Shown here piece after piece: positions 8,562-33,741 of a stretch of 33,741 bases of DNA. The stretch's first letter is position 1; the number at the start of each line of letters is the position of its first letter. Origin of the DNA: Alphaproteobacteria bacterium (lineage in GTDB: Bacteria > Pseudomonadota > Alphaproteobacteria > Geminicoccales > Geminicoccaceae); the NCBI GenBank assembly GCA_027045875.1, contig JALUAG010000102.1, positions 1 to 33,741 on the forward strand, read 5' to 3'. The translations under genes and the position numbers were made by a program. A model generated the notes under the pieces. It was not told the DNA's origin. It saw nothing but the letters and a program-made list of their open reading frames with translations, and did not search any database.

Positions 8562-8569
8562 CCTCCCTG

Positions 8570-8593: not shown

Positions 8594-8622
8594 TCCCTTC
8601 CAGCTTCGGGATTCCGGCCGGC

Positions 8623-11532: not shown

Positions 11533-11877
11533 ATGAACCAGCAGGCTTCCGCTTCGGCGACCGGGAACGCACCCGAGGAGACGGATGAACTCCGGCTCCT
11601 CAAGGAGGATCTCGCCCGTCTGCGCGCGGACATCCAGGCGCTCAAGGAGCATCTGGCGTCGCTGGGCGACCGCAAGGCCGCCGAAGCCCGGGAGGCGGCC
11701 ACCGCCCGGCTCGAGACGCTGCGGTCCGAACTCGACCGCCTCGCCGAGGAACTCGGCGCCCAGGGGCGGGAGGCGGGGCGGACCCTCGAGGAGAAGGTCC
11801 GCGAGCAGCCGTTCGCGAGCCTGCTCGCCGCCTTCGGCCTCGGTTTCCTGCTGAGCCGCCTCCTGGAGCGGCGCTGA
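11533..11877 (+). CDS. DUF883 family protein (YqjD/ElaB-like)
   Basis: A 114-residue protein, ATG 11533 behind AAGGAACAGGG. A long charged coiled coil occupies about residues 18-90 (ELRLLKEDLARLRADIQALKEHL onward). It ends with REQPFASLLAAFGLGFLLSRLLERR, the tail-anchor membrane segment typical of ElaB/YqjD/YgaM. In E. coli this family sits in the inner membrane and binds stationary-phase ribosomes; whether that holds here is unknown. The next gene is a holin-like membrane protein, reproducing the enterobacterial yqjD-yqjE order and supporting the call. Confidence 0.85.
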   Translation: MNQQASASATGNAPEETDELRLLKEDLARLRADIQALKEHLASLGDRKAAEAREAATARLETLRSELDRLAEELGAQGREAGRTLEEKVREQPFASLLAAFGLGFLLSRLLERR

Positions 11878-13914: not shown

Positions 13915-14045
13915 GCGGGATCCCCCTCCTCGCCCCGGAACATCTCCATGTACGAGTCCGCGCCCCCGGATGCCGTCGCCAGGACATTCCGCACGTGCTA
14001 TCTACGGTCGGCACGGATCGCTCATATGGGAACGGACGGCGAGGG

Positions 14046-15023
14046 ATGCCAGAGCGGCAGGACGGCCGGGATCCGGGGGCAGAGGCGGCGCCGGAGCTTT
14101 CGATCATCGTCCCCCTCTACAACGAGGAGGACAATGTCGGGCCGCTCTACCGCGCCATCCGCGAGGCGGTGCTGCCCCTCGGTCTCGCGACCGAGATCAT
14201 CTTCGTCGACGACGGCAGCCGCGACCGCACCTTCGAGCGGGCGGCGGCCCTGCCGCGCGACGACGGGGTGCGGCTGCGGATCCTCAAGTTCCGCCGCAAC
14301 TACGGCCAGACCACGGCGATGGTGGCCGGCATCGACCATGCCCGCGGCCGCATTCTCGTCACCATGGACGGCGATCTGCAGAACGATCCCCGCGACATCC
14401 CGCGCTTTCTCGAGAAGATCGCCGAGGGCTACGATCTGGTGGTGGGATGGCGCCGCGACCGCAAGGATCACTGGTCGCGGGTGCTGCCCTCGAAGGTCGC
14501 CAACTGGCTGATCGGCAAGGTCACCGGGGTGCCCATCCGGGACAACGGCTGCTCCCTCAAGGCCTATCGGGCCGACCTCATCAAGCGGATCCCGCTCTAT
14601 TCGGAGATGCACCGCTTCATCCCGGCGATGGCCTCATTGGCGGCGCCGCGCATCGCCGAGATCGAGGTGCGCCATCACCCGCGGCGTTACGGCACCTCCA
14701 AATACGGCTTCTCCCGCATCTACAAGGTGTTCGTCGATCTGGTGGCGATCCGCACCATCCTGAGCTTCGCCCGCCATCCTTTCGCCTGGCTCGGCACCAT
14801 CGGCGCCATCGCCGGCGGCATGGCGCTCCTCTATCTGCTGCTCGCCCTCCTCACCATGGGCGATCCGAACCGGGGGACGACGATCGTCTGGGGCGGCCTC
14901 GCGGTGCTCCTCGGTTCGCTTGCCATCTTCTCGCTGTTCCTCGGTTTCCTCACCCACCTCGTCTATGCCGGCAAGGCCCGATATCTGACCGCCTTCCGCC
15001 ATCTCTCGGTGCGGCGGCTCTGA
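14046..15023 (+). CDS. GT2 glycosyltransferase, DPM1/GtrB-like, membrane-anchored
   Basis: A 325-residue transferase of the type that makes polyprenyl-phosphate sugars. The start is ATG 14046 just after GGCGAGGG. The GT-A domain has all expected motifs: SIIVPLYNEEDNVGPLY, IIFVDDGSRDRTFE (nucleotide-binding Asp), FRRNYGQTTAMVAG, and the DxD in VTMDGDLQNDPRDIPR. It continues with NGCSLKAYRADLIKRI and HHPRRYGTSKYGFSRIYK. Two C-terminal membrane helices follow (about residues 235-305), as in GtrB/ArnC-like enzymes. The donor sugar cannot be predicted. It ends 6 bp from the convergent epimerase gene. A degenerate relative is encoded at 19430-20455. Confidence 0.94.
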   Translation: MPERQDGRDPGAEAAPELSIIVPLYNEEDNVGPLYRAIREAVLPLGLATEIIFVDDGSRDRTFERAAALPRDDGVRLRILKFRRNYGQTTAMVAGIDHARGRILVTMDGDLQNDPRDIPRFLEKIAEGYDLVVGWRRDRKDHWSRVLPSKVANWLIGKVTGVPIRDNGCSLKAYRADLIKRIPLYSEMHRFIPAMASLAAPRIAEIEVRHHPRRYGTSKYGFSRIYKVFVDLVAIRTILSFARHPFAWLGTIGAIAGGMALLYLLLALLTMGDPNRGTTIVWGGLAVLLGSLAIFSLFLGFLTHLVYAGKARYLTAFRHLSVRRL

Positions 15024-15029
15024 GATCCC

Positions 15030-16115
15030 TCAGCGACCCGGAGCGTGGATCTCCTCTTCCGGCGATTCGGACTCGCCGAGCCCGTTCGCGTCGATCAGCC
15101 CGTGCTCGCGATACCAGGCGGCGGTGCGACGCGCCCCCTCGGCGAAGCCGATCACCGGCTCCCAGCCCAAAAGACGCCGTGCCTTCCCGGTCCTGAGGGC
15201 GAAGCTCTTGGTGAAGAAGTCCAGCCGGCGGCGGTGCAGCGGCGGCTGGATGCCGAGCGGGCGCAGCACGGTTTCCATCAGCGCCGCACTCAGGGTGAAC
15301 GGCCACAGCGGCAGATGGAGGCCGGCGTGGGGTCGGTGCAGCGCCGCCGCCACCGCCTCGACCATCTGTTCGGTGGTCACCGCTTCGGGACCGGCCATCA
15401 CGAACAGTTCGCCCACCGCGGCAGGATGCCCGCAAGCGGTGAGCAGCCCGCGCACGAGATCGTCCACATAGATCGGATGATGGAGATTGCGGCCGGCACC
15501 GATCAGCGGAAAGCGCCCCTTCTGCACCGCCCTGAACATCTTGAGCAGGCGCCAGTCCCCGGGACCGTAGGTCTCGGCGATGCGGACCGCCGTCACCGGC
15601 AGCTCCCCGCCCGAGGCCAGCACCAGCCGCTCGGCCTCGAGCTTGGTGTGCCCGTAGATGTTGTCCGGCGCGGGCGGGGTCTCCTCGTCGGCGACCCCCC
15701 GATGGTGGCCGTAGACACCGATCGTGCTGCCGTAGACGAAGCGGCGGACGCCGGCCGCGCGGGCCGCCTCCAGCAGCCGCGCGGTGCCCTCGACATTGAC
15801 CTCCCGGAAGCGGGCGTCGGGAATGTTCATCTCATGCTGGGCGGCGGCCAGATGGACCACCACATCGATGTCGTCGAACAGCCGCTCGGGGACGCCGTCC
15901 CCGCCGATATCGAGATGCTCGATCGCGATGCTGGCCGCCCTGAGCTCCCGGAGATTGGCCTCCTCCGCCGGATTGCGCACGAGCCCGAGAACCACTGGCC
16001 GATGGCCCATGCTGCGGGCATGGAGGGCCAGACGGGAGCCGATGAAGCCGGTCCCGCCGGTGATCAGGATGCCCAGAGGGGAATCCGTCTCATCCGTGTT
16101 CGCGTCGCCGCCCAT
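15030..16115 (-). CDS. NAD-dependent epimerase/dehydratase (extended SDR), copy 1
   Basis: A 361-residue nucleotide-sugar-type epimerase/dehydratase. ATG 16115 is chosen because a perfect AGGAGGT lies 9 bases upstream (complement of 16125-16131); a GTG at 16145 would sit upstream of it. GILITGGTGFIGSRL is the NAD loop, VVHLAAAQ follows, YGSTIGVYG carries the active-site Ser/Thr, and YGHTK is the catalytic YxxxK. The C-terminal half shares blocks with the epimerase at 24390-25373, including GPGDxRLLKMFR, RPLGxxPPxxRRR and EGxxRTAAWYRExG. The two are clearly paralogs. It is divergent from the asnB-like operon. Confidence 0.93.
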   Translation of the reverse strand: MGGDANTDETDSPLGILITGGTGFIGSRLALHARSMGHRPVVLGLVRNPAEEANLRELRAASIAIEHLDIGGDGVPERLFDDIDVVVHLAAAQHEMNIPDARFREVNVEGTARLLEAARAAGVRRFVYGSTIGVYGHHRGVADEETPPAPDNIYGHTKLEAERLVLASGGELPVTAVRIAETYGPGDWRLLKMFRAVQKGRFPLIGAGRNLHHPIYVDDLVRGLLTACGHPAAVGELFVMAGPEAVTTEQMVEAVAAALHRPHAGLHLPLWPFTLSAALMETVLRPLGIQPPLHRRRLDFFTKSFALRTGKARRLLGWEPVIGFAEGARRTAAWYREHGLIDANGLGESESPEEEIHAPGR

Positions 16116-16306
16116 CTTCCACGCACCTCCTGTACGAAACGACACATGTCTTTTCGCCCATTACACCGTGGAAAATTACCGCGGATCACCCCTCGGTACA
16201 AAGCTTTCGCGCGACCTCCTGTCGCCACGACGCCACTTGTGTGATATCGGCGCATCACGGTGCGCCGTCCTTCCGGCGGCGACGGAATCATCGAGGCGAT
16301 CGGGCC
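16116..16306. promoter_or_regulatory. Divergent promoter region of epimerase 1 and the glycan operon
   Basis: These 191 bp between divergent starts must drive the minus-strand epimerase and the plus-strand six-gene run. The stretch 16140-16260 is more AT-rich than its surroundings, with CATTACACCGTGGAAAATTA and ACTTGTGTGATATCGG. The only element I can place firmly is the strong ribosome site of the epimerase at 16125-16131. No -35/-10 pair matched well enough to report. Confidence 0.45.
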
Positions 16307-18244
16307 ATGTGCGGCATCGTCGGCATCGTCGGTGGCAGATATCGCGATCCCGCCCGGATCGCGGCGATGCTGGCGCGGATCGCCCATCGCGGACCGGACG
16401 GGGAAGGGGTCCACCGCGCCGGGGAGGCGGTCCTCGGTCATCGCCGTCTGGCGATCATCGATCTCGCCGGTGGCCGGCAGCCGATCCTCAACGAGGACGG
16501 CAGCATCGTGCTGGTGGGCAACGGCGAGATCTACAACTACCGGGAACTGCTGGCGGAGCTGGAGGCGGCCGGCCACCGTTTCCGCACCCGTTCCGACAAC
16601 GAGGTGATCCTCCATCTCTACGAGCAGGAAGGGGTCGACTGCCTCGCCCGTCTGCGCGGCATGTTCGCCTTCGCCATCTGGGATTCCCGCCGCCGGCGCC
16701 TGTTCGCGGCCCGCGACCGGCTGGGCCAGAAGCCCTTCTACTACCGCCATGCCGGCGAGGAGTTCGCCTTCGCCTCGGAGATCAAGGCGCTGCTGCCGCT
16801 GCTCGAGGACGGGCCGGAGATGGATCCGCGGGCGCTGCACCAGTATTTCGCCCTGCGGATCGTGGCCCCGCCGCTGTCCATGATCCGCGGCATCGCCAAG
16901 CTGCCCCCGGCCCATTACCTGCTGTTCGACCGCGAGCGGGGCGTCCGCCTCGCCCGTTACTGGCAGCCGGTCTACGAGCCCAAGGAAACGGGTGGCGAGA
17001 GGCGGCTGCTCGACCGTCTCGAGGAGGCCCTGGTGGAGGCCGTCGATCTCCATCTGGTGAGCGACGTCCCCGTCGGCGCCTTTCTCTCGGGCGGCCTCGA
17101 TTCGACCCTGGTGCTGGCGATCGCCGCCCGGCATCTGGCGACCGGCCCCCTGCCCACCTTCACCATCGGCCTTCCCTACGGCGCCTACAACGAGGCCCCC
17201 GCCGCCCGGCTGGTGGCCGAGCGCTACGGCACGGTCCACCACGAGGAGGTGATGGTGCCCTCGCTGGTGGCCCATCTGTCGGAGCTGGTCGACTGTCTCG
17301 ACGAGCCTTCGGATCCCCTCGCCGTCTGCTCCTGGCTGATCAGCCGCATGGCCCGCCGCCATGTGAAGGTGGTGCTCGGCGGCGACGGCGGCGACGAGCT
17401 GTTCGGCGGCTACGACCGCTACTACGGCAACATCTTCGCCGAATGGTACGCCATGCTGCCGGCGCCCCTTCGTCGCCATCTGCTGGGGCCGGTGGTGGCG
17501 CGGCTGCCGGAGGGCAACTGGTACAAGAGCCTCGGCCACCGGCTCAAATGGCTGCACCGCGCCTCCTTCCTCTCGGGCGGCGAGCGCTATGCCCGAAGTC
17601 TCGGCTACTTCTATCTCACGCCCGATCTCCAGCAGCGGCTCTACGGGCCCCGACTCCGCGCCACCGCTCGCGATTTCGACCCCTACGCCTGCATCCGCGA
17701 GGCCTACGAGGCGGCGGCCGCCGAACATCCCGTCGATCGCATGCTGGCGGCCGATTCCGCGGTCCGCCTGCCGGATCATTCGGTGATGATCCTCGACCGC
17801 ACCTCGATGGCCCACGGCCTCGAGGCCCGCTCTCCCTTCCTCGACCACCGGCTGGCCGAGTTCACCGCCACCCTGCCGGTGCGCTACAAGATCCGCCTGC
17901 GGCAGCTGCGCTACCTGCAGCGCCGCCTCGCCGAACGCTATCTGCCGCCCGCACTGCTCGCGCGCCAGAAGCAGGGTTTCTCCTCCGCCCTGCCCTATCT
18001 CCTCCGGGAGGAATACCGCCGCCTGTTCGCCGGCTTCCTGCGGGATTCCCGGCTGGCCCGGGACGGTTTCCTCGACCAGCGGGCCCTCGACCGTCTGGTG
18101 GCGGCGCAGCTGGCCGGCACCGCCGATCACGGCAATCGCCTGTGGCTGCTGCTCAATGCCGAGGTCTGGTACCGGATGCGGATCCTCGACCACGACCGCC
18201 GGAGCTTCGAGGCCTCGCTCGAAACCGCGTCCGCGGGCGCCTGA
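16307..18244 (+). CDS. asnB: Asparagine synthase (glutamine-hydrolysing)-like amidotransferase
   Basis: A 645-residue class II glutamine amidotransferase. ATG 16307 is fixed because the mature enzyme needs Cys at position 2 (MCGIVGIVGG). The glutaminase domain (about 1-190) has AHRGPDGEG, NGEIYN and SDNEVILHLYE. The synthetase domain has the ATP-PPi loop FLSGGLDST (near residue 260), VVLGGDGGDELFGGYDRYY and SMAHGLEARSPFLDHRLAEF. All catalytic residues look intact. In glycan clusters such proteins often amidate something other than aspartate, such as a uronic acid or lipid head group; that role here is inference from context. It leads a same-strand operon and is followed 12 bp later by the flippase-like gene. 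Confidence 0.93.
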   Translation: MCGIVGIVGGRYRDPARIAAMLARIAHRGPDGEGVHRAGEAVLGHRRLAIIDLAGGRQPILNEDGSIVLVGNGEIYNYRELLAELEAAGHRFRTRSDNEVILHLYEQEGVDCLARLRGMFAFAIWDSRRRRLFAARDRLGQKPFYYRHAGEEFAFASEIKALLPLLEDGPEMDPRALHQYFALRIVAPPLSMIRGIAKLPPAHYLLFDRERGVRLARYWQPVYEPKETGGERRLLDRLEEALVEAVDLHLVSDVPVGAFLSGGLDSTLVLAIAARHLATGPLPTFTIGLPYGAYNEAPAARLVAERYGTVHHEEVMVPSLVAHLSELVDCLDEPSDPLAVCSWLISRMARRHVKVVLGGDGGDELFGGYDRYYGNIFAEWYAMLPAPLRRHLLGPVVARLPEGNWYKSLGHRLKWLHRASFLSGGERYARSLGYFYLTPDLQQRLYGPRLRATARDFDPYACIREAYEAAAAEHPVDRMLAADSAVRLPDHSVMILDRTSMAHGLEARSPFLDHRLAEFTATLPVRYKIRLRQLRYLQRRLAERYLPPALLARQKQGFSSALPYLLREEYRRLFAGFLRDSRLARDGFLDQRALDRLVAAQLAGTADHGNRLWLLLNAEVWYRMRILDHDRRSFEASLETASAGA

Positions 18245-18256
18245 ACGGGAAGACGC

Positions 18257-19297
18257 ATGAAGGACACCGCTTCCGACGAACCGACGGCCGTCCCGGCCGG
18301 GCGACGGTCGCGCAACTGGCTCGGCTGGGGGCTGGCCGTCGCCATCATCGCGACCTTGCTGCTGTTCCTCGATCCCCGCGAGCTGCTGGAGGCCTTCCGG
18401 CGCCTGTCCGCCGCCGAAATCCTGCTGCTCCTCGCGCTGATCACCCTCGACCGCATCCTGATGGGGGTGAAATGGGGCGTGCTGCTGCGCATCGCCGGAG
18501 TCGAACTGTCCTATGCCCGGATCGTCGCCATCTACTACCAGGGATCCTTCGTCGGCGTCCTGATGCCCAGCCATATCGGCGGCGATCTGCTGCGCGCCTG
18601 GCTGGTCGCCCGCGAGAGCGGCATCCGCTATCCGGTGTTCGCCTCGCTGGTGATGGAACGGCTGGTCGGCTTCCTGTCGGCGATCAACTGGGCGCTGCTG
18701 GGCGCCGTGCTGCTGACCATCTGGTTCGATCCCCAGCGCTGGCCGCTGTGGGCCGGGCTCGGCCTCCTGGCGGCGGTGGCCGGCAACGGGCTGTTCGCCC
18801 TTTCCCTGCATCCCCGTACCCACGATCTCGTGCTCGCCGGGCTGGGCCGCTGGAACCGGCTCCGCGTCGTCGGCATCCTCGAGAAGTTCTACGAGGCCTA
18901 TGCCCGCTTCAGTCGCGATCCCGCCCGGTTGCTGCTCAATTTCCTGCTCACCCTGCTCGAGCACTTCCTGCAGATGGGGATCGTCTTCGCCATCGCCATC
19001 GCCATCGACGTCACCGCCTCCCCGGTCATGTTCTTCGCGGCGACCGCGGTCTATCTGCTGATCTTCCGCATTCCCGTCGCCCCCGACGGCTGGGGAGTGG
19101 GAGAAGTGACGGCGATCGGCGTCTTCGCGCTGATCGGGATCAGCGCCGAGAACGCCTTCGCCATGAGCGTCACCGGCCATGCGCTGGTGCTCCTGGGCGT
19201 GCTGCCGGGGCTGCTGTTCTTCCTGCTGCACCGGCAGCGGCCGGCCGAGGTGGTGGCGCAGGTGGAGGCGAGCGAGGAGCGGGGCACCGCGGTCTGA
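18257..19297 (+). CDS. Flippase-like membrane protein (lysylphosphatidylglycerol synthase TM / AglD-like)
   Basis: A 346-residue polytopic membrane protein with about eight hydrophobic segments. ATG 18257 lies after GGGAAG. Family features are ITLDRILMGVKWGVLLRIAGVELSYARI, YYQGSFVGVLMPSHIGGDLLRAWLVA (the conserved PxxxGGDxxR block near residues 95-120), VMERLVGFLSA, and RIPVAPDGWGVGEVTAIG near the C-terminus. It lacks the soluble transferase domain of MprF, so it is the stand-alone form found in glycan and lipid clusters. Translocation or transfer of a lipid-linked intermediate is a proposed role, not demonstrated. It follows the amidotransferase gene closely. Confidence 0.9.
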   Translation: MKDTASDEPTAVPAGRRSRNWLGWGLAVAIIATLLLFLDPRELLEAFRRLSAAEILLLLALITLDRILMGVKWGVLLRIAGVELSYARIVAIYYQGSFVGVLMPSHIGGDLLRAWLVARESGIRYPVFASLVMERLVGFLSAINWALLGAVLLTIWFDPQRWPLWAGLGLLAAVAGNGLFALSLHPRTHDLVLAGLGRWNRLRVVGILEKFYEAYARFSRDPARLLLNFLLTLLEHFLQMGIVFAIAIAIDVTASPVMFFAATAVYLLIFRIPVAPDGWGVGEVTAIGVFALIGISAENAFAMSVTGHALVLLGVLPGLLFFLLHRQRPAEVVAQVEASEERGTAV

Positions 19298-19429
19298 CGG
19301 TAGGGTTGCGTACCGGAAGCTGCGACACGCGCAGATAATATGCCCGAAGTGGTGTTTCTCCTTGCAGTCGACCACGGACGGGGGCTTCTTCTTCCCCGGC
19401 AGAATGGATTCGTGGTATCGATCACGCTC

Positions 19430-20455
19430 ATGGCTTCGATCACCGATACGGACTCCCCGGAGAGCATCGCCGCCGACGCGGCCACCGTTTCCTCCCGCCC
19501 CCGGGAGGGCGCCGGATCGCGGGCGCGGGAGGCTCCGCTGCTGGACGCCCCGCTTTCGGTGGTGGTGCTGGTGGATCGTGAGCCGGACGACATCGCGAGC
19601 CTCCACCGCACCTATCGCGAGGCGACCCGCCCGCTCGCTCCCGAGGTCGAGTTCATCTACGTGGTGGACGGGCCGCTCGAGCGGACGATCGCCGCGCTGC
19701 GCGAGCTCGCCCGGCAGGGAGAGCCCCTCTCCATCCTCACCTTCCCGAAGGCCTTCGGCGAGGCCTCCGCCCTTTCGGTGGCCTTCCGCGAGGCGCGCGG
19801 CGGCTACATCCTCACCCTTCCCGTCGAGACCCAGGTGGAGCTCGACGAGCTCCCCGAACTCGTCACCGCCATCGCCGACGCCGATCTCGTGGTCTGCCGG
19901 CGCCTCACCGACCGTCCCCTGCGCCTCGGCAAGTCGAAGAAGCTCGAATATCTGAGCCGGCTGCTGCTGGGCAGTTCCTTCGAGGACCTGCGCTGTGCGG
20001 TACGCCTGCTGCGGCGCAGCGTCGCCGACGAGCTCGTGCTCTACGGCAACCAGCACCGCTTTCTGCCGCTCATCGCCCAGACCCAGGGCTTCCTCGTGCG
20101 AGAGGTGCCGGTGCGGGGGCGGATCCGCGAGAACCGCCGGCCGCGCCTCGCCGTCAATCTGCTGCTCGATCTGCTGACCATCTATTTCCTGCTGCGCTTC
20201 GTGCAGAAGCCGTTCCGCTTCTTCGGCGGCTTCGGCATGGTGATCCTCGCCATCGGCGGCCTCGTCACCGCCTGGCTGGTGATCGAGCGGCTGTTCTTCG
20301 GCGTCGGCCTCGCCGATCGGCCGGCACTCATTCTCTCCACCCTGACCATCGTCCTGGGGATCCAGATCATCGCGGTGGGGCTGATCGGCGAGATCATCGC
20401 CTTCGCCCACGCCCGCAATCTCAAGGACTACAAGATCGAGAAGATCCTCGAATAG
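19430..20455 (+). CDS. GT2-like membrane protein with degenerate catalytic motifs
   Basis: A 341-residue protein with the fold pattern and two C-terminal helices of the GT2 at 14046. The catalytic signatures are altered: FVDDGSRD corresponds to YVVDGPLE, the DxD block TMDGDLQND to TLPVETQVE, and HHPRRYGTSKYG to VRGRIRENRRPR. Structural parts persist (FGEASALSVAFREARGGYILTLP, LRCAVRLLRRSVADEL, NQHRFLPLIAQTQGF, KPFRFFGGFGMVIL). It is probably a non-catalytic partner or a lectin-like paralog. The start is uncertain: ATG 19430 is preferred because the upstream frame from 19340 uses codons unlike the rest. The 132 bp gap before it includes a GATAAT at 19334-19339 that could be a -10 element. Confidence 0.8.
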   Translation: MASITDTDSPESIAADAATVSSRPREGAGSRAREAPLLDAPLSVVVLVDREPDDIASLHRTYREATRPLAPEVEFIYVVDGPLERTIAALRELARQGEPLSILTFPKAFGEASALSVAFREARGGYILTLPVETQVELDELPELVTAIADADLVVCRRLTDRPLRLGKSKKLEYLSRLLLGSSFEDLRCAVRLLRRSVADELVLYGNQHRFLPLIAQTQGFLVREVPVRGRIRENRRPRLAVNLLLDLLTIYFLLRFVQKPFRFFGGFGMVILAIGGLVTAWLVIERLFFGVGLADRPALILSTLTIVLGIQIIAVGLIGEIIAFAHARNLKDYKIEKILE

Positions 20456-26345: not shown

Positions 26346-28610
26346 TCAATCCACGTAGTATTTGGCGGCTTTTCTGTAGTATTGTGCGAGGTCGCCGTAT
26401 CCGTACTTGGCGTGTTTTTTGAGGTCGACCATGGTGAAGACGGCGCCGGCGGGTTCGACGCCGATTTCGCGCAGGAGCTGGACGCTTTCGGCGGCGGCGC
26501 CGGCCTCGGTGGCGCCCCAGCGCAGCACGAACAGCACCTTGTCGGCCAGGAGGGCGGCGAGGCGGCTGTCGGCGACGCTGGCCAGGGGGGCGGTATCCAG
26601 CACCACGAGATCGAAGGTCTCGCGCGCCCAGGCCAGGAGTTCGGCCGTGCGGGGGTGTTCGAGGAGGTCGGTGGGGTTGGTGGTCTGGCCCTTGACCGGC
26701 AGGAAGTAGAGGCCGCTTTCGAGATCGTGCTGCACGACCTCCTCGCGGCTGCGCTCGCCGCTCACGTATTCGACGAGGCCGCTCGAGATCTGCCAGCCGA
26801 GCTCGCGGTGGACCGAGGGGTGGCGCAGGTCGAGGTCGATCAAGAGCGCCCGCTTCCGCGCCCGGGCGGCGAAGATGGCGAGGCTCACCGCGAGCGTCGT
26901 CTTGCCCTCCTCGGGCAGCGAGGAGGTGACCATCACCACCCGGGGCGGACGGTCGCCGGCCCCCAGCTTGAGGGCGGTGTAGATGCCCCGGAGCGCCTCG
27001 GCGTAGGCCGAGAGCGGCTTGTCCATCAGATACCGGTGGGGCTTCCTGCCGCGCCCCAGCCGCTGCAGGAGCGGCACCCGGGCGAGGGTGGGAAGACCCA
27101 GCAGCGCCTCCACCTCGCGGGCGCTCCGGAGCCCCCGGTCCATCCGCTCCAAAAGCAGCGCCAGGACGCTGCCGAGCACGAAGAACACCCCGAAGCCGGC
27201 GGCCGCGAACAGCTTCGGCCCCGGCGTGCTGGGCGCCGCCGGCGGCGTCGCCTTGGCCACGATGCGCACGTCCGGCTCGACGATCTCCTGCTGCGCCCGG
27301 GTCTCCTTGTAGCGCTGCAGGAAGGTCTCGTAGAGCTGGCGGCTGGCCTGCGCCTGGCGCTCCAGTTCGCGCAGCCGCACCTCCGCCTCGCGGTTGACCG
27401 CGGTCCGCCGCTTGACCCCCGAAAGCTGCTCCTCCAGCGCCGCCACCCGCGCCGCCACCCCCCGCACGTCGTTCTCCAGCGTCCGCAGAATGCGCGCGAT
27501 CTCGGCCCGGATCTTGGCCTGCAGATTGGCCTTCTCGCGCCGCAGCTGGACCATCCGCGGATGCTTCTCGCCATAGAGCGTCGACAGCTCCGCCTCCTGA
27601 CGCAACAGCTCCGTCTCCTGGTTGCGCAGATTGGTGATGATCGGCGAAGCCGCCACCTCCGGCACCGAATCCAGCGACCCCCCGCGCCGCTCCAGATCCC
27701 GCACCAGCGACAGCCGCGCCCGCTTCTCCGCCAGCTCCGCCCGCGCCTCGATCAGTTGCCGGTTGAGATCACCGAGCTCCTGCTCGCTCAACGTCGGCCC
27801 CTCGGCCTCTGCCGACAGCAGATTGTGCTCCGCCCGATAGCGCTCCACCGCCGCCTCGGCATCGGCCACCTCCCGCTTCAGGGACGCCAGCCGCTCCTCC
27901 AGCCACAGACTGACCCGGCTGGTCGCCAGAAGCTTGGTCTTGAGCTGGTCGTCGACGAACATCTCCACCATCCGGTTGGCGATCAGCGCCGCCTTGACCG
28001 GATCCTCGGAGGTGAACGACAGACCGATCACATAGGAAAGATCCCCCGACAGCTCGAGCCCCGACGCGAACCGCGCAAGCGCAATCTCCCGCGCCCGCGC
28101 CGCCGCCTCGCTCTCCAAAAGCGGCCGCGGCGGATCCTCGAGACCCACCGCCACCAGCCAGTCGCGCGGCACGAAGAACAGCGCCCGCGCCAGACCCTCC
28201 CGCGGCGCACGCGGCACCGCCCCCGGCGGCAGCGCCGCAAAGGGATTGAACTCCGGATCATCGAACAGACCCAGATCCTCCATCACACGGGCATGGAACC
28301 CCCGCGACTGCAACAGACGGATCTGCGTCGCAATGGTCGCCGAATCCGCCGGCAAACCCGACAACACCGCCTGCAGATCGGCATAATTGGGCTGCCGCGG
28401 ATCCAACACGATCTGCGCCCGCGCCGTGTACTTCGGCGTCACCAGCAACGACACCGAAACACCCAACACCACACCCAGCACACAACACGCCACAAGCAAC
28501 CACTTGCGACGACGCAAAACCGAAAACACACTCCCCACATCAATCACCTCCCCACCCTCGAACATCCGATCCGAAAGCGAAGGGGAGGTCTGAACGATCT
28601 CACCGCGCAT
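26346..28610 (-). CDS. Wzc-type polysaccharide co-polymerase / tyrosine autokinase
   Basis: A 754-residue inner-membrane protein controlling surface polysaccharide length and export. ATG 28610 follows GGAG 8 bases upstream. A Wzz domain begins after TM1 (about 36-57, WLLVACCVLGVVLGVSVSLLV). The long periplasmic coiled coil covers about 230-460, ending in APSTPGPKLFAAAGFG and TM2 (463-487). The BY-kinase domain has Walker A SSLPEEGKTT (563-572), Walker A' LLIDLDLRHP (about 586-595) and Walker B LVVLDTAPL (664-672). The C-terminal YGYGDLAQYYRKAAKYYVD carries six tyrosines for autophosphorylation. No Wza, Wzx or Wzy was seen nearby. The first third uses T/G-ending codons unlike its neighbours. 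Confidence 0.95.
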   Translation of the reverse strand: MRGEIVQTSPSLSDRMFEGGEVIDVGSVFSVLRRRKWLLVACCVLGVVLGVSVSLLVTPKYTARAQIVLDPRQPNYADLQAVLSGLPADSATIATQIRLLQSRGFHARVMEDLGLFDDPEFNPFAALPPGAVPRAPREGLARALFFVPRDWLVAVGLEDPPRPLLESEAAARAREIALARFASGLELSGDLSYVIGLSFTSEDPVKAALIANRMVEMFVDDQLKTKLLATSRVSLWLEERLASLKREVADAEAAVERYRAEHNLLSAEAEGPTLSEQELGDLNRQLIEARAELAEKRARLSLVRDLERRGGSLDSVPEVAASPIITNLRNQETELLRQEAELSTLYGEKHPRMVQLRREKANLQAKIRAEIARILRTLENDVRGVAARVAALEEQLSGVKRRTAVNREAEVRLRELERQAQASRQLYETFLQRYKETRAQQEIVEPDVRIVAKATPPAAPSTPGPKLFAAAGFGVFFVLGSVLALLLERMDRGLRSAREVEALLGLPTLARVPLLQRLGRGRKPHRYLMDKPLSAYAEALRGIYTALKLGAGDRPPRVVMVTSSLPEEGKTTLAVSLAIFAARARKRALLIDLDLRHPSVHRELGWQISSGLVEYVSGERSREEVVQHDLESGLYFLPVKGQTTNPTDLLEHPRTAELLAWARETFDLVVLDTAPLASVADSRLAALLADKVLFVLRWGATEAGAAAESVQLLREIGVEPAGAVFTMVDLKKHAKYGYGDLAQYYRKAAKYYVD

Positions 28611-28862
28611 GCGCACTTCTCCGGCGGGCCTGCCATCCCTGCGGGGGCGGCGGTCCGAAATCGATCCGTCCGGGCATGTCTTCTTGAACCGGCGTTCCTC
28701 TCCACGACGGGGGGGGTCGGGACGGCCCCGAACCAACCCGGGGTGATGTGCCATGCCTCACCGCGGGGAACAATGCCATATCTCACGGATGCGTACCCAC
28801 AGGCGAATTGCCCGGGCCCGGAGCTGTGGTGGCGGTTTGGCGAACGCCGCCGCATCCTGCCG

Positions 28863-28898
28863 CCGCGTATACGGGTTCGCACGTATCCGCGTATATGC
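28863..28898 (+). repeat. Two copies of CCGCGTATA motif
   Basis: CCGCGTATACGG at 28863-28874 and CCGCGTATATGC at 28887-28898 are direct repeats 24 bp apart. The first contains the perfect palindrome CGTATACG. Related sites occur at 32303-32314 (complement CCGCGTAAACGG), 32341-32352 (CCGGGTATACGG) and 33425-33436 (CCGCGTACACGG). All are outside genes. They look like binding sites for one DNA-binding protein. Confidence 0.55.
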
Positions 28899-28954
28899 TC
28901 CGAAACCTTCCGCCGCCCGCGGCGCGGCGGACTCCCTCCGCCGGCGCCGGGGGG

Positions 28955-28985
28955 CGGGAAAGAACGCCCCGCGGCCGCGGGGCGT
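28955..28985 (-). terminator. Intrinsic terminator of hsp20
   Basis: Bases 28964-28985 form a perfect 22 bp palindrome centred on GCGGCCGC, 34 bp past the hsp20 stop. On the minus strand it is followed by TTCTTT (complement of 28958-28963). A very stable GC stem followed by a T-rich stretch fits a Rho-independent terminator. Confidence 0.6.
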
Positions 28986-29019
28986 CGGTCGATCTCGGGA
29001 TCGCCGGGCGATGCCGGGA

Positions 29020-29505
29020 CTAGCCGCCGGTCTTGATGGCGATCCTCTTCGGCTGGGCTTCCGGCCTCTTGGGCAGGGTGACGGTCAGCACGCCCCTGTC
29101 GAAGACGGCCCGGATCCCGTCCTCGTCCACCTCGGCGGGAACCGGGATGCGGCGGAGGAAGCTGCCGTAGGAGCGCTCCATCAGATAGTACCCCCGCTCC
29201 TTCTCCTCCGCCTCGCGCTCCTGTTTCTTCTCGCCGCGCAGGGTGAGGACGCCGTCGGCGAACTCGATCTCGACGTCCCTTTCCTCGACGCCCGGCAGCT
29301 CCGCCTGGACGACGATGGCGTCCTCGGTCTCGCGCACGTCGACCCGCGGCGCCATCACCCCCTCGCCGAAGGATGTGCGGGGCAGTCCGAAACCGCGGGT
29401 CATCTCGTCGAACAGGCGATCCATCTCGCGCCGCATGGCGGCGAAAGGATCTTCGGCGGGCCTCGTTTCCTGCCGGCCGAACGGCATCAGGCTGCGGAAG
29501 GTCAT
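29020..29505 (-). CDS. Small heat-shock protein, Hsp20 family
   Basis: A 161-residue ATP-independent chaperone that holds unfolding proteins. Two ATGs compete: 29511 and 29505. 29505 is chosen because AAGGGGAG then lies 6 bases upstream; 29511 would leave no spacing. The N-terminus has PFAAMRREMDRLFDEMTRGFG. The alpha-crystallin domain (about residues 50-150) starts MAPRVDVRETEDAIVVQAELPGVEERDVEIEFADGVLTLRGEKK, and then YGSFLRRIPVPAEVDEDGIRAVFDRGVLTVTLPK with the conserved GVLTxxLPK. A C-terminal basic tail follows. It has a heat-shock-like promoter and its own terminator, so it is probably monocistronic. Confidence 0.96.
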   Translation of the reverse strand: MTFRSLMPFGRQETRPAEDPFAAMRREMDRLFDEMTRGFGLPRTSFGEGVMAPRVDVRETEDAIVVQAELPGVEERDVEIEFADGVLTLRGEKKQEREAEEKERGYYLMERSYGSFLRRIPVPAEVDEDGIRAVFDRGVLTVTLPKRPEAQPKRIAIKTGG

Positions 29506-29590
29506 GGCCATCTCCCCTTCGTCCTGGATCCTTCCGGGGCGACCCGGAATGTTCCGCCGCTCCCCCGGGGCGTCGCCACCCCACCGGTTC

Positions 29591-29619
29591 ATAAGGGCAT
29601 CGGCGCGCCGGGCTTCAAG
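29591..29619 (-). promoter_or_regulatory. Sigma-32-like promoter of hsp20
   Basis: On the minus strand CTTGAA (complement of 29614-29619) is followed after 16 bases by CCCTTAT (complement of 29591-29597). This resembles the RpoH consensus CTTGAA ... CCCATAT-type. It would place the transcript start about 75 bases before the hsp20 start codon. The long GC-rich leader could fold over the ribosome site, but I cannot show a thermometer structure. Confidence 0.55.
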
Positions 29620-29823
29620 ACGGGCCGGAGCGTTTTTCGCCGTATGGTCGAAAGCTCTCTGGACGAAGCCCCGTCGTTGCCGCTAACTGCGTGCCACCAT
29701 CGCCGGTTCCGGGACGGCCATGCGTCACCTTCCGGCACCGCGGACCGGCCGGGCACGCCCGTCGGCCAAGAGCGCCGTCCCGGCCGCACCGGTCGGCGTC
29801 CCGCGCCGCGGCGCTCGGGGCGA

Positions 29824-29840
29824 TTCGGTACATCGTTCAC
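29824..29840 (+). promoter_or_regulatory. Single iteron in the initiator-gene leader
   Basis: TTCGGTACATCGTTCAC, identical to the origin iterons, stands alone 22 bp before the initiator ATG and 6 bp before its ribosome site. Bound initiator here would block transcription or translation start, a standard autoregulation arrangement in iteron replicons. Confidence 0.75.
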
Positions 29841-29862
29841 TCCGGCGGGAGGCGGACGGCTC

Positions 29863-30762
29863 ATGAGCATGGCGGAAAAGCAGGTCGACCTCTTTCTCGA
29901 CAGCCTGATCAACGCCCCCTTCAAGGACGATCGGGCGCTGATGGAGTTCCCCTTCTTCTCCCTGCAGAAGGCGCCGCGGATGAAGCCGCTCGTCTACGAC
30001 GACGGCAAGGTCAAGATCGAGGTGCGCCCCGGCGAGAAGGGGCTCGCCACCATCTGGGACAAGGACGTCCTCATCTACATCGCCTCGATCATCAACGACC
30101 GCCTGGAACGCGGGCTGCCGGTGGACAAGACGGTCCGCTTCAACGCTCACAACTTCCTCAAGGCGACCGGACGCGGGACCGGCAAGCGGGCCTACGAACT
30201 GTTCCTGGACGCCATGTTCCGGCTGCGGTCGACGACCATCCTGACCACCATCGAGGCGGGGGACATCAAGGAACGCCGCGGCTTCGGCTGGATCGAGACC
30301 TTCCGCATTCTCGAGCGCCGCACGAGGAGCGGCAAGAAGATCATGGGCGCCTGCGAGATCTCCCTCAACGACTGGATGTTCCGGGCCATCGTCAAGGACC
30401 GCCGGGTGCTGACCATCAACCAGCGCTACTTCGCGCTCTCCATGGGCCTCAAGCGGCGTCTCTACGAGCTCGCCCGCAAGCACTGCGGCCACCAGGAGAA
30501 ATGGGTCATCACCCTGCCCAAGCTGATCGAGAAATGCGGCTCGGTGCTGGAACCCCGCTTCTTCAAGCCGCAGCTCAAGAAGGTGGTCGAGGACGACGAT
30601 CTGCCCGACTACCACATCGCCATGAGCTTCGATCCCAAGGACAAGCAGGCGGCAGCCGAGGAGGGTTTCGATTCGCGCCGCTGGTCGACCAACGAACGGA
30701 TCCTCGTGAGCTTCTGGCCGCGCGGGCAGCGCCCGCCGGAGATCATCGCCCCCCTCGCCTGA
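29863..30762 (+). CDS. repA: Plasmid/chromid replication initiator protein A (RPA family)
   Basis: A 299-residue initiator that binds the adjacent iterons to start replication. ATG 29863 has GGGAGG 10 bases upstream; a second ATG at 29869 is less well spaced. Recognisable RPA-family blocks are MEFPFFSLQKAPRMKPLVYDD (about residues 27-47), ATIWDKDVLIYIASIIND, RFNAHNFLKATGRGTGKRAYELFLDAMFRLRSTTI, GFGWIETFRIL, SLNDWMFRAIV and RRLYELARKHCG, with a basic winged-helix-like C-terminal half. The family is known mainly from alphaproteobacterial plasmids. The stop codon abuts the first downstream iteron (two bases between). No parA/parB partition genes follow, unlike many replicons of this class. Confidence 0.9.
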   Translation: MSMAEKQVDLFLDSLINAPFKDDRALMEFPFFSLQKAPRMKPLVYDDGKVKIEVRPGEKGLATIWDKDVLIYIASIINDRLERGLPVDKTVRFNAHNFLKATGRGTGKRAYELFLDAMFRLRSTTILTTIEAGDIKERRGFGWIETFRILERRTRSGKKIMGACEISLNDWMFRAIVKDRRVLTINQRYFALSMGLKRRLYELARKHCGHQEKWVITLPKLIEKCGSVLEPRFFKPQLKKVVEDDDLPDYHIAMSFDPKDKQAAAEEGFDSRRWSTNERILVSFWPRGQRPPEIIAPLA

Positions 30763-31279
30763 CTCGGTACATCGTTCACGCCGCCCTTCCGTGCCGGCAC
30801 TCCCTCCGCCGGCCGGTGAGCCCGCCCCACCGCCGGACAGGTTCGGTACATCGTTCACATCTCCCGGGATGTCCGCCTTCCGGCGCCGGCGACGGGCGGT
30901 TTCCGATTCGGTACATCGTTCACGGGGCAAGGCCCCGGGATTCGGTACATCGTTCACATCTCCGCCGCCCGGCCGGCCGGCTTCCATCCCTCTTCCGCCG
31001 GTTCGGTACATCGTTCACATCGCGTCGGCGCCCGCACGCCGCGGCGCGATCCTCCGGCAGCCCGATTCGGTACATCGTTCACATCGTTCACGGCGCACCG
31101 CCGCGCCTCCCCTTCCCGCAGTCCCGGAAAATCGCGCCAAGACGGCGTTCGGTACATCGTTCACGCCTCGGACGTTAAACCGGAAGTCACGCGATTCGGT
31201 ACTTCATTCACCGATGTTCGGTACATCGTTCACGTTTCGATTCGGTACTTCATTCACCGATGTTCGGTACTTCATTCAC
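30763..31279 (+). repeat. Iteron array, 11 copies in two sequence classes
   Basis: Consensus TTCGGTACATCGTTCAC. Cores CGGTAC..TTCAC begin at 30765 (flank CTCGG), 30844, 30909, 30943, 31004, 31068, 31150, 31197, 31219, 31243 and 31265. Those at 31197, 31243 and 31265 are the variant TTCGGTACTTCATTCAC; the others are canonical. Spacing between cores is 34-82 bp on the left but 22, 24 and 22 bp for the last four. The copy at 31068 carries an extra partial tandem (ATCGTTCAC repeated to 31091). All share one orientation. Not CRISPR: spacing is irregular and the units are short. It directly follows the initiator gene. Confidence 0.95.
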
Positions 31280-31390
31280 AATTTTTCCCGCAAGCCACTG
31301 CGGATACACGAGGAATCCGATCGGTAACTTACTAACGGGAATCTATTTAACGTTCTAACGCCCCGGCGGCGCCGGCGGCTGTGGATAACT
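31280..31390. other. Predicted DNA-unwinding region of the replication origin
   Basis: This is the most AT-rich stretch in the window. It begins just after the last iteron and ends at a DnaA box. It contains two related 13-mers, TAACTTACTAACG (31325-31337) and TAACGTTCTAACG (31348-31360), which differ at two positions and start 23 bp apart, close to the iteron period. Position, composition and repeats fit a duplex-opening element. Replication from here is inferred. Confidence 0.75.
31380..31388 (-). promoter_or_regulatory. DnaA box
   Basis: The plus strand reads TGTGGATAA, the exact complement of the consensus TTATCCACA. It lies 20 bp right of the second 13-mer and 30 bp from the aroE stop, at the edge of the origin, where host DnaA commonly assists iteron-type initiators. 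Confidence 0.8.
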
Positions 31391-31418
31391 CCCGGATCGC
31401 GACGCCCGTTCGCGCTCA

Positions 31419-32273
31419 TCAAAGGGCTTGCAGAAGACATCGACGGAGATCCGCATCGACGGCGGGCTCGACACCGCCCCAGTGGCGGAAACCGGGCACC
31501 GCCTGCCAAAGCAGCATGCCCAGGCCGTCGACCACCGGATTGCCACGACGACGGGCGGTACGAAGCAATGCGGTCTCCAGCGGAACATAGACGATATCCG
31601 CCACCACCGCCGCCTCCGGCAGACGATCGAGCGCGAGATGCAGGGGCTCCTGCCCCTTCATGCCGAGACTGGTGCAGTTCACGCAGAGGACGGCACCCAC
31701 AAGGGCCCGCGCGCGATCCTGCCAAGGCACCACCACGACCGCGGTGCCGAAATGCTCTTCCAGCCAGGCGGCCAGGGCACGGGCCCTCCCCTCGCTGCGG
31801 TTGACGATCCGAAGCCGCGGACAGCCGGCCTCGCAGAGCGCCGCCGCTACCGCCCGGGCCGCACCGCCGGCACCGAGCACCACCGCCGGGCCTGCCGTCA
31901 ATGCGAGCGCCGGCGCCTGCTCCCGGAGGCTCGCGAGGAAACCGAAACCGTCGGTGTTGAGGCCGCGCAGCCTCCCCCCCTCCCCTACCAGCACCGTGTT
32001 CACCGCCCCGATGCGGGCCGCCGCGGAATCGAGCTCCTCCACCAGCGCCGCCGCCGCCTCCTTGTGCGGCAGCGTCACGTTCCAGCCGCGGAACCCGAGC
32101 CGTGGCAGCAACGCGAAGGCCGCGGCGAGATCCTCCGCCCGCACCCGGAGCGGCACGTAGGCGCCGTCGATGCGGTAGCGTTCGAACCAGTAGCCATGGA
32201 GCCGCGGCGAGAGGGAATGGGCCACCGGATCACCGAGCACCGCCGCCAGGCGGGCCTGCCCCGAGATCAGCAC
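31419..32273 (-). CDS. aroE: Shikimate dehydrogenase
   Basis: NADPH-dependent reduction of 3-dehydroshikimate in aromatic amino-acid synthesis. 284 residues; GTG 32273 follows GGGAGG by about 6-7 bases. The substrate loop HSLSPRLHGYWF (residues 19-30), the catalytic Lys in NVTLPHKE (about 65-72) and catalytic Asp in LNTDGFGF (about 104-111) are present. The nucleotide loop is VVLGAGGAARAVAAAL and the NADP-type NRS follows. The C-terminus GLGMLLWQAVPGFRHWGG is that of true AroE. The gene reads toward the origin and ends 30 bp from the DnaA box. coaE/dnaQ, often neighbours of aroE in alphaproteobacteria, are absent on that side. Confidence 0.96.
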   Translation of the reverse strand: MLISGQARLAAVLGDPVAHSLSPRLHGYWFERYRIDGAYVPLRVRAEDLAAAFALLPRLGFRGWNVTLPHKEAAAALVEELDSAAARIGAVNTVLVGEGGRLRGLNTDGFGFLASLREQAPALALTAGPAVVLGAGGAARAVAAALCEAGCPRLRIVNRSEGRARALAAWLEEHFGTAVVVVPWQDRARALVGAVLCVNCTSLGMKGQEPLHLALDRLPEAAVVADIVYVPLETALLRTARRRGNPVVDGLGMLLWQAVPGFRHWGGVEPAVDADLRRCLLQAL

Positions 32274-32302
32274 CCCGCCCTCCCGTTGCCGCAGAGCTCC
32301 AC

Positions 32303-32352
32303 CCGTTTACGCGGACACGCGTCTCCGGCTTTCACTGCACCCGGGTATACGG
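32303..32352. repeat. Two CCGCGTATACGG-like motifs between the SDR gene and aroE
   Basis: The complement of 32303-32314 is CCGCGTAAACGG, and 32341-32352 reads CCGGGTATACGG; the second abuts the SDR stop. Bases 32308-32321 (TACGCGGACACGCG) are repeated exactly at 33245-33258, so this 14-mer flanks the SDR gene. These sites lie upstream of aroE and could influence its expression. Confidence 0.5.
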
Positions 32353-33033
32353 TTACCATGGGCATTCCCGACCGCGCGGGTCGAGAAAGCAGCCGCTGCG
32401 CCCGAGGTCGAGACCGGCGATCAGCGCGAACAACGCTTCCGCCGCCTCGCCCGGCGCGAGGGGCGCCCCCTCCCCTCCCATCGCGGTGCGGATCCAGCCG
32501 GGGTGCACCACCGCGCAGACGATGCCCTCGCCGCGCAACTCGCAGGCGAGACTGCGCCAGGCCATGTTGAGCGCCGCCTTGCTGCAGCGATAGGCGTAGA
32601 GCCCGCCCGATCGGTTGTCGCCGATGCTGCCCAGGATGCTCGAAATGGCGATCATCTTGCGTTCGGCACTCCGTGCCACATGGCGGCGGAGGGCGCCGGC
32701 CAGCACGAGCGGGGCGATGCTGTTGACATGGAAGGCCTCGAACCAGGCCGGGACGTCCAGCATCTCGATGCGGTCCTCGGGGCCGGGGATGCCGGCATTG
32801 GCGATCAGGACGTCGATCGCCTCGCCGACCAACGCATCGGCGAGTGGACGGTAGGCGGTCTGATCACGCACGTCGAGCCGGTGGAGGACGACATCGCCGG
32901 CTATCCCCCGCAGCGCATAGGCGCGCTCGGGATTGCGGCAGCAGGCGTGGACGCGCCAGCCGCGCCGGGCGTAGGCCTCGACGAGGGCGAGACCGAGACC
33001 GCGGCCGGCACCGGTGACGAGCATCGTGGGCAC
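32353..33033 (-). CDS. Short-chain dehydrogenase/reductase (sniffer/carbonyl-reductase-like)
   Basis: A 226-residue classical SDR. GTG 33033 is preferred (MPTMLVTGAGRGLG) because GGAG lies 10 bases upstream; ATG 33024 is the alternative. The cofactor loop is TGAGRGLG, LDVRDQ fits NAD(P) binding, IANAGIPG is the NAG motif, the Ser lies in ISSILGSI and YRCSK provides YxxxK. VHPGWIRTAMGG matches the C-terminal region of the sniffer/CsgA-like subgroup. The substrate is unknown. It lies 79 bp upstream of aroE in the same direction and may share its transcript. Confidence 0.92.
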   Translation of the reverse strand: MPTMLVTGAGRGLGLALVEAYARRGWRVHACCRNPERAYALRGIAGDVVLHRLDVRDQTAYRPLADALVGEAIDVLIANAGIPGPEDRIEMLDVPAWFEAFHVNSIAPLVLAGALRRHVARSAERKMIAISSILGSIGDNRSGGLYAYRCSKAALNMAWRSLACELRGEGIVCAVVHPGWIRTAMGGEGAPLAPGEAAEALFALIAGLDLGRSGCFLDPRGRECPW

Positions 33034-33741
33034 CGCGAACGCGCTCCGCTCCTGCGGGTGACGGGACGTGCCATGTATCGTGCGGTGCCGCGGCGCGGGC
33101 AAGGGGCGAGGTGACGGCGGCCATATCCGCCGCGACGGAGGCGGGTCCCCGGACGCCACGACACGGTGGTACGGTCGCGGCCCGGGCGGCGGCCTCAACG
33201 GACTTTCCTCGGTGTGCCGCGAAGGCGGCCACCGGCGACCAGGCTACGCGGACACGCGGACGCGCGGAGGCCATTCTACAAGTCCCGACCGTTCGGGTCT
33301 CGTCGCCTGCGGTCGGCACCGCAGCAGCATGGCAACCGGCTGCCGGTGAGACGGTCGCGTCGCTTCCGGCCGTCCAACGCGGAGACGCGCAGTCAACGAC
33401 ACGGGGACGTCGTTGTCACATGATCCGCGTACACGGTTGCGGGAAGGGGCCGCTGCTCGTCGATCCCCGCGAGGGAGGTGGGTTCTACGGCCACCGGCGA
33501 TCGAGGGCGCGCGGCCACACGGGCCACCCTCTTCACCGGAACATGGCAAACGCGGAACATGGGATACGCGGAACCGCGGATACGTGTATCGGTGTGCGGC
33601 GCGAGGGAAGACCGTGGTGGGGTGCACGGGAAGCGTGCCCAGCGCGCCCAGGAGGGGAAGGACCGGGTCGGCGGCGGATCTGCGGGAACGGCGGATCGCG
33701 CACCGCGATGCGGCGATGACGGCGCCGTGGGGTGGGGAAGG
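33034..33741. other. Gene-free right end, about 0.7 kb
   Basis: No frame here shows family motifs or normal codon use. The stretch contains CCGCGTACACGG at 33425-33436, TACGCGGACACGCG at 33245-33258 (matching 32308-32321) and a clustered TACGCGG/CCGCGGATACG group at 33561-33590. It also has an inverted repeat with CAACGAC (33394-33400) and GTCGTTG (33409-33415). The last bases (GGGGAAGG) resemble a ribosome site for a plus-strand gene beginning just beyond the window. Otherwise I see nothing I can name. Confidence 0.45.

Follow-up and report, generated by a model that had tools for sequence, protein, structure and literature searches.

Chromids are said to have been defined by Harrison and colleagues in 2010. 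Working criteria, as set out in sections of two papers, include a plasmid-type replication system, a partition system (parAB), a state separate from the chromosome, low copy number, indispensability, core genes that are chromosomal in relatives and a G+C content (GC) within about 1% of that of the chromosome (PMC9025767, PMC12456017). Here, we analysed a 33,741-bp stretch of DNA, hereafter the window, from an alphaproteobacterium of the family Geminicoccaceae (GenBank assembly GCA_027045875.1). The window is the entire contig JALUAG010000102.1 (C102) of a 3.53-Mb genome in 110 contigs (G000; estimated completeness 99.93%, contamination 2.29%), and it places the gene for an RPA-type replication initiator and an array of iterons beside aroE, which encodes shikimate dehydrogenase. 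We consider it very probable that the window represents part of an old chromid that has been passed down vertically, has a plasmid-type origin and carries genes that the cell needs, and that aroE moved beside this origin.

The closest plasmid-borne relatives of the window RPA are the best eleven of 1,162 matches in plasmid records, at 55–63% identity (Acetobacteraceae, Magnetospirillum, Tateyamaria and Thalassospira). In RPA plasmids of Kozakia, Rhodovastum, Magnetospirillum and Thalassospira, whose initiators fall in this 55–63% range, ParA and/or ParB is annotated near the initiator in three of the four and an AAA ATPase in the fourth. Their cargo differs from that of the window replicon, and aroE is not annotated within 8–12 kb of the initiator in their gene tables, which are incomplete. 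Much closer relatives lie within the family. RPA matches occur in 19 of the 115 genomes searched; 13 of these form an orthologue set, all among the 31 Geminicoccaceae genomes (G000 included). Thus, 12 of the 30 other family members carry an orthologue 78–91% identical to the window RPA, nearest in the metagenome-assembled genome (MAG) HR40 (G014; 91%) and then in genomes of a genus labelled g15 (85–87%), whereas the best matches from other families in the sample reach 40–43%.

The window has the anatomy of an RPA/iteron replicon, and hence a plasmid-type replication system: the RPA domain scores well above its gathering score, and direct iterons and an AT-rich region lie beside the initiator gene (Table 1). 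The 12 iterons match TTCGGTAC[A/T]TC[A/G]TTCAC with at most one mismatch, all on the + strand, and span 29824–31279; none appeared in 20 first-order Markov simulations of the window, even when two mismatches were allowed. The four iterons of the core origin keep a 22-24-22 spacing in nine of the 11 genomes having the quartet, the remaining two showing 22-23-22 and 22-33-22. The quartet was not found in G018, nor in G022, where the contig stops at this point. An alignment of the 11 origins shows TAAC/CTAAC repeats recurring beside the quartet, and a DnaA box (at most one mismatch) lies 100–102 bp past it in six of them; in the other five, no such box was found after the quartet. The original prediction, that an RPA/iteron origin has its DnaA box 30 bp from the end of aroE, is borne out by the PF10134 match, the iterons and the perfect box. 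From this anatomy, RPA would bind the iterons and, together with DnaA where the box is present, open the AT-rich element and start theta replication, presumably at low copy number; the lone iteron 5′ of the RPA gene may serve its self-control.

Origins elsewhere in the family show variations. Geminicoccus roseus (G019) has two additional iteron-like sites (at most two mismatches) at 117578–117616 of contig C1, about 50 kb from the RPA gene, which are possibly a control or incompatibility site. In g15, the RPA gene is separated from the iterons and the origin still adjoins aroE: in G016 (C22) RPA lies about 31 kb away and a different open reading frame (ORF) fills the gap between the first iteron and the array, and in G026 (C35 and C144) RPA and iterons are on different contigs.

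The ancestral gene order in Alphaproteobacteria is maf-aroE-coaE-dnaQ, and the chromosomal origin (Cori) is linked to dnaA or to this block. In our data, the order survives with aroE between maf and coaE in three (G003, G004 and G005) of the 28 genomes in which both flanking genes could be located (G024, G026 and G028 gave no usable coaE). In 24 of the 28, maf and coaE are neighbours, −1 to 138 bp apart, with no aroE between them, and in G025 an unrelated ORF separates them, so that 25 of 28, G000 included, lack aroE there. On contig C49 of G000, maf (11033–11662) and coaE (10369–11028) are 4 bp apart and followed by dnaQ; in HR40, the two genes overlap by 4 bp. In seven genomes (G000, G009, G012, G014, G015, G016 and G026), aroE instead lies within about 1.3 kb of the iterons. 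All 13 RPA-positive genomes have a canonical aroE, on the same contig as RPA in seven (G000, G009, G012, G014, G015, G016 and G019) and on a different fragment in six. A tree of AroE proteins recovers as supported groups both the three operon-linked genes (98/96) and the three genes of a genus labelled g5 (100/99), but its deeper forks lack resolution, so a single move is not proven. We suggest that aroE moved out of the maf-aroE-coaE block in an ancestor shared by most of the family and came to lie next to the iterons (between iterons and parA in four genomes), which would have tied the cell to the replicon. A literature search combining aroE, coaE, dnaQ and maf returned nothing, and within our data only G003–G005 support the ancestral status of this gene order.

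The same loci bear on the second explanation that the original prediction had offered, a plasmid origin captured at, or replacing, the chromosomal origin, and on the related idea that the chromid is integrated into the chromosome in G000. The ends of the window contig are unresolved, which leaves room for integration. Capture was rejected, since the single dnaA of G000 is on C41 and the block that houses aroE in three relatives is on C49 without it; the window shows neither Cori linkage (hemE was not looked for). Furthermore, HR40 and G. roseus carry the locus on separate contigs, one with a closing end repeat. We therefore regard capture or integration as quite improbable, and the replicon of G000 as probably extrachromosomal.

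If the window belongs to a chromid, its core genes should not be spare copies. A check for second copies found none for folK, which has a single match in the G000 genome, or for folP, which has a single match at E ≤ 1e-15; both are on the window contig. The original prediction had placed these two genes on the same stretch as the origin: they do share its contig and score above their model cut-offs, but they lie 27–29 kb from the origin, beyond the 28611–33741 interval that the prediction had quoted. The window AroE passes two shikimate dehydrogenase models (NF001312, 344 versus 295 bits; TIGR00507, 210 versus 200 bits). The only other AroE-like protein found in G000, on C65, is 36% identical over residues 60–270 and passes none of the 17 NCBIfam models it matches (TIGR00507, 101 bits against a cut-off of 200). 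This divergent gene (C65, 3350–3964) has a counterpart in G002 that groups with it in the tree (100/100), and the ORFs around it resemble ABC-transporter parts, judged from their translations. Together with the empty aroE slot, these sole copies suggest that the cell probably cannot afford to lose the replicon.

The sole copies also bear on two rivals. An assembly or binning artefact, with the contig drawn from another organism, would find room in the estimated contamination, and the close relatives G001 and G002 lack the locus. However, the RPA is closest to those of HR40 and g15, from the same family, and the aroE groups with theirs (98/96); the GC is within one point of other contigs; and without this contig a genome scored as 99.93% complete would have no folP or folK match and no aroE over its cut-off. 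We judge an artefact highly improbable. An ordinary accessory plasmid with spare biosynthetic genes is improbable as well. RPA initiators are common on plasmids, as the 1,162 matching records attest, two assemblies of the same genus have no RPA, and cargo differs between genera. Against this, the genes are not spare in G000 and the maf-coaE slot is empty, the initiator tracks the chromosome across genera, and the GC matches that of the chromosome, unlike C4 of G. roseus, a small contig with an RPA relative and a GC of 52.5%.

The tracking is seen in protein distances: RPA distances correlate with the distances of CoaE (Mantel r 0.63, p 0.0002, n=11) and of AroE (r 0.66, n=13). The mean difference is 0.19 for RPA and 0.41 for CoaE, making RPA the better conserved of the two. 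GC was compared with 80–140 kb samples of other contigs. It is 68.75% in HR40 contig C5, which carries RPA, against 68.87% (140 kb), and 69.9% in the window against 70.8% (100 kb). The gap between replicon and chromosome is thus 0.1 points in HR40 and 0.9 in both the window and the g5 genome G023, within the approximately 1% expected of chromids, and 1.2 points in G. roseus, just outside it. Mean dinucleotide distances of the replicons are 0.030–0.048 (means over 16 dinucleotides). A published threshold for relative abundance distance is ≤ 0.4, in a passage that is silent on whether the scale is a sum or a mean (PMC12456017); if it is a sum, our values would be about 0.5–0.8, above the threshold. 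RPA relatives also occur outside the orthologue set. In G005, which retains aroE beside coaE, a 46% relative (C36, 143844–144695) lies on a 198-kb contig with a GC of 0.54 nearby, akin to 0.56 in the 20-kb stretch around aroE of that genome. Arboricoccus pini (G015) has four RPA and five RepA_C matches, and so probably holds several plasmids besides the chromid.

A separate replicon is most directly seen in HR40. Its RPA, origin, aroE and ParA are on contig C5 (188.5 kb), which has an identical 99 bases at both ends with no further match in the MAG. Unique identical contig ends are the usual mark of a closed circle in de Bruijn assembly, and C5 is a closed circle and a separate replicon. The detrended GC skew of C5 has its minimum at 69.4 kb and its maximum at 155.2 kb, with the origin at 63–64 kb and the opposite point at about 158 kb, and its range was reached by none of 1000 block shuffles; this fits two-way, theta replication from the iterons. 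The skew of g5 contigs from G017 and G023 is symmetric around their RepA_C module; that of G012 C106 and G. roseus C1 has its maximum away from the point opposite the origin. In the type strain G. roseus DSM 18922, both RPA and aroE are on a contig of 128,736 bp that is distinct from the 5,421,495-bp contig. We do not claim C106 of G012 as a circle (a 45-bp terminal match of unchecked uniqueness). Collectively, the sole folP and folK, the only aroE over its cut-off and the circular contig of a relative uphold the original prediction of a chromid.

HR40 C5 carries further genes. An Rfam search finds 44 tRNA genes in HR40, seven of them on C5, and two programs agree on these seven. Their anticodons (Lys-CTT, Ser-TGA, Ala-TGC, Gly-GCC, Leu-TAA, Ser-GCT and Phe-GAA) are absent from the other 37; tRNA-Phe is the clearest sole copy, because no other tRNA reads Phe codons. 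An eighth (Ser-CGA) was dropped from the count, being found by ARAGORN only and having a further copy on C2. tRNAs as conserved cargo were rejected, as there are none in the window, C89 of G000, G. roseus C1, G012 C106 or G023 C54; elsewhere, ARAGORN alone gives one each in G016 C22 and G017 C54. In addition to aroE, folP, folK and ParA, C5 carries genes for GTP cyclohydrolase II (RibA) and glucose-6-phosphate isomerase, and an RlmE-like protein that scores under its cut-offs. Glycogen genes (glgA, glgB, glgC, glgP and malQ) and type II secretion-type genes occupy 101226–104019, 8663–11155, 157404–163548 and 169228–174010. Cargo other than aroE appears lineage-specific, with folP and folK in G000 and HR40 and the seven tRNAs in HR40.

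As predicted from the window alone, no parAB was found there; the best match to HR40 ParA (E 1.4e-4) falls inside the Wzz/kinase gene. ParA orthologues, at 67–75% identity to that of HR40, are present in eight other genomes: on the aroE contig in G012, G016, G022 and G026, within 4 kb of aroE there and in HR40, and on other fragments in G013, G021 and G025. In G000, the orthologue is on C89, with its start 198 bp from the contig end, accompanied by seven further homologues of C5 genes. As ParA follows the short-chain dehydrogenase gene in HR40, C89 may continue the window, although the two contigs have no end overlap in common. Where present, this ParA would segregate the replicon.

Genus g5 has a similar set of genes on a different initiator. 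No RPA orthologue was found in this genus, and RPA iterons (at most two mismatches) are absent from C54 of both G017 and G023. These 66-kb contigs carry aroE, folP, folK, a cysN/cysC-type gene and its neighbour, Wzz, two glycosyltransferases and Hsp20 homologous to those of HR40 C5, matching 17 (G017) and 16 (G023) of the 146 C5 genes. An adhesin gene interrupted at the ends of G023 C54 is intact as a single ORF in G017, which is without about 2 kb present in G023, and both parts are adjacent in G027; the contigs resemble a single circle cut open at different places, making C54 of G023 a probable separate replicon. The G023 initiator is a RepA_C protein (PF04796), followed by ParA and ParB, and is 94% identical in G017 and 91% in G027. 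The G027 replicon is split over two contigs of 90 and 48 kb, RepA_C being encoded on a different contig from ParA, ParB and aroE. G023 and the window share the order Wzz(−), Rep(+), aroE(−). Hsp20 lies between Wzz and Rep in the window, and ParA, ParB and a urate-oxidase-like gene lie between Rep and aroE in G023. An initiator replaced in place, with RepA_C/ParAB substituting for RPA under overlapping cargo, would be the simplest account; the g5 replicon may also have been assembled independently. RepA_C orthologues occur in G012 (82%) and G007 (70%), the former on an 11.7-kb contig. This would be in keeping with a g5 replicon that arose from a co-integrate, but no further gene of that replicon matched on the contig and we offer this as a guess. 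RPA and RepA_C have no BLASTP similarity, and a profile comparison, with very shallow profiles, gave 0.3% probability. A distant common fold is possible; a profile search of solved structures gave no match to RPA at E ≤ 0.1.

In ten of the 31 assemblies (G001, G002, G006, G008, G010, G011, G020, G028, G029 and G030), the RPA orthologue, canonical aroE and folK are all missing. The maf-coaE slot is empty in nine of them and unreadable in G028, and G006 is a single 3.76-Mb contig. Canonical aroE is present in all 14 folK-positive genomes (Fisher p 0.0005, an optimistic value as the genomes are related). A chromid that was not binned seems likelier than gene loss in these ten. Speaking against binning loss, folK is also missing in seven genomes with canonical aroE, folP has a match in two of the ten (G008 and G028), and a paralogue in G006 scores above shikimate dehydrogenase cut-offs, so that this genome may not need the canonical gene. 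Taken together, these comparisons point to a broader proposal, which we regard as evenly balanced between right and wrong: a family-wide chromid whose cargo outlives its machinery. Here, aroE would have moved to the origin; in g5, the RPA/iteron engine would have been exchanged in place for a dissimilar RepA_C/ParAB between Wzz and aroE; in g15, the initiator would have left its iterons; and short-read binning would lose the replicon, so that about one third of assemblies, one of them a single contig, have no canonical aroE and folK though scored near complete.

Several observations weigh against reading the window as part of an indispensable chromid. The window contig has no exact terminal overlap of 16–200 bases and gives no sign of its own of being circular or extrachromosomal. 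In G. roseus, 31 kb separate aroE from RPA on their shared contig, and folK and folP are both on the large contig, so these two are not constant cargo; no folK match was found in four of the 13 RPA-positive genomes, and HR40 has a second folP on C4. Paralogues of AroE also pass shikimate dehydrogenase cut-offs, at the subfamily level on C3 of HR40 and at both subfamily and equivalog levels in G006 (PRK12549, 442 versus 235; NF001319, 278 versus 252), so canonical aroE need not be indispensable everywhere. As no tRNA-Ile was found in the HR40 MAG, its rRNA regions are probably missing, and a second tRNA-Ala(TGC) may hide there. No ParA orthologue was found in five of the 13 RPA-positive genomes (G009, G015, G018, G019 and G024), only ParA-like proteins below 40%, and no ParB was identified in the RPA group. 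Mean dinucleotide distances are larger for the replicons than for any of the 20-kb chromosome pieces in HR40 and G023, and larger than for four of five such pieces in G000. Finally, RPA, canonical aroE and folK are all absent from G001 and G002, two assemblies of the same genus, so the replicon is either missing from them or dispensable.

In the window, folP and folK overlap tail to tail and are separated from the origin by the TRAP transporter genes and the polysaccharide cluster. Both glycosyltransferases of this cluster have replicon-borne homologues in HR40, G. roseus, G012 and g5. A homologue of the short-chain dehydrogenase sits between aroE and parA in HR40. The end of the window (33199–33741) has no nameable gene; the matching place in HR40 continues with ParA and two tRNAs. 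Genes on fetched contigs were called with a home-made caller rather than a standard program.

Table 1. Features of the window, origin region first
Feature	Position	Strand	Evidence or remark
RPA-type replication initiator, 299 aa	29863-30762	+	PF10134, E 1.3e-72; 244.5 bits vs gathering score 27
Lone iteron 5′ of RPA start	29824-29840	+	Position of an autoregulation site; putative function
Seven iterons	30763-31164 (starts 30763, 30842, 30907, 30941, 31002, 31066, 31148)	+	Motif match
Core origin, iteron quartet at 22-24-22 bp spacing	31195-31279	+	Motif match, comparison across genomes
AT-rich stretch, probable unwinding element	31280-31360		56% AT vs 30% in window; putative function
TAACTTACTAAC within AT-rich stretch	31325-31336		
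TTAACGTTCTAAC within AT-rich stretch	31347-31359		
DnaA box TGTGGATAA, perfect	31380-31388		30 bp from aroE stop
aroE, shikimate dehydrogenase	31419-32273	-	Shikimate_dh_N, E 7.6e-26
Short-chain dehydrogenase, last gene of window	32353-33198	-	HR40 homology ends at 33033
Hsp20 small heat-shock protein	29020-29592	-	Homologue on replicon in HR40, G012, G016, g5
Wzz/tyrosine-kinase-type exopolysaccharide protein	26346-28754	-	Left of Rep gene here and, with another Rep, in g5
Polysaccharide cluster	13854-20455		Two glycosyltransferases, 13854-15023 and 19340-20455
Aminotransferase and TRAP transporter genes	6195-10424	+	Likewise together on HR40 circle
folK, HPPK	2070-2558	-	TIGR01498 above cut-off
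folP, dihydropteroate synthase	1072-2091	+	TIGR01496 above cut-off

How plasmids turn into chromosomes tends to be argued from a handful of genomes. In the present case, a single family seems to retain the state before (aroE in its operon), the state after (an empty slot, with aroE beside a plasmid origin) and a subsequent engine swap, which allows the sequence of events to be read, and to be tested in a type strain that is in culture. A practical consequence is that genomes scored as near complete may miss a valuable replicon, which would make auxotrophies inferred from them unsafe. We found no description of a Geminicoccaceae chromid in the open-access papers covered by our searches; no word beginning Geminicocc- occurs in the main text of a chromid survey (PMC12456017), nor does “plasmid” occur in the main text of the paper on G. 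flavidas and G. harenae.

Compared with described systems, the replicon would resemble the rRNA operon (rrn) plasmids of Persicobacteraceae and others in that indispensable genes have long been kept only on a plasmid, but, according to the sections of that work cited here, those plasmids carry rRNA operons on Rep_3 initiators (PMC10645730), whereas here biosynthetic genes and tRNAs are on RPA or RepA_C replicons. It also resembles the RepABC-8 chromid of Sulfitobacter (201–268 kb), a plasmid recruited in an ancestor and kept by the clade; that case, as described in part of PMC9025767, covers four species of one genus with RepABC, and ours many genera with two initiator types. The pSymB chromid of Sinorhizobium meliloti, in an excerpt of PMC4207669, is a 1.68-Mb repABC replicon, as opposed to aroE on an RPA or RepA_C replicon and the seven sole tRNAs of HR40. 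The small size (66–189 kb) is not new, as a 65-kb biofilm chromid is named in a section of PMC9025767. As in chromids generally, the initiator is of plasmid type and has a ParA close by in several genomes, the GC is like that of the chromosome, inheritance is vertical, and core genes found on the chromosome in relatives are present (by the aroE slot and the sole HR40 tRNAs); unlike in the chromids described so far, aroE stands beside the origin and the initiator type differs between genera sharing cargo. The apparent novelty lies in how these features are combined: aroE at the origin while its chromosomal slot stands empty, tRNAs with no other copy, and what looks like an exchange of engines beneath overlapping cargo.

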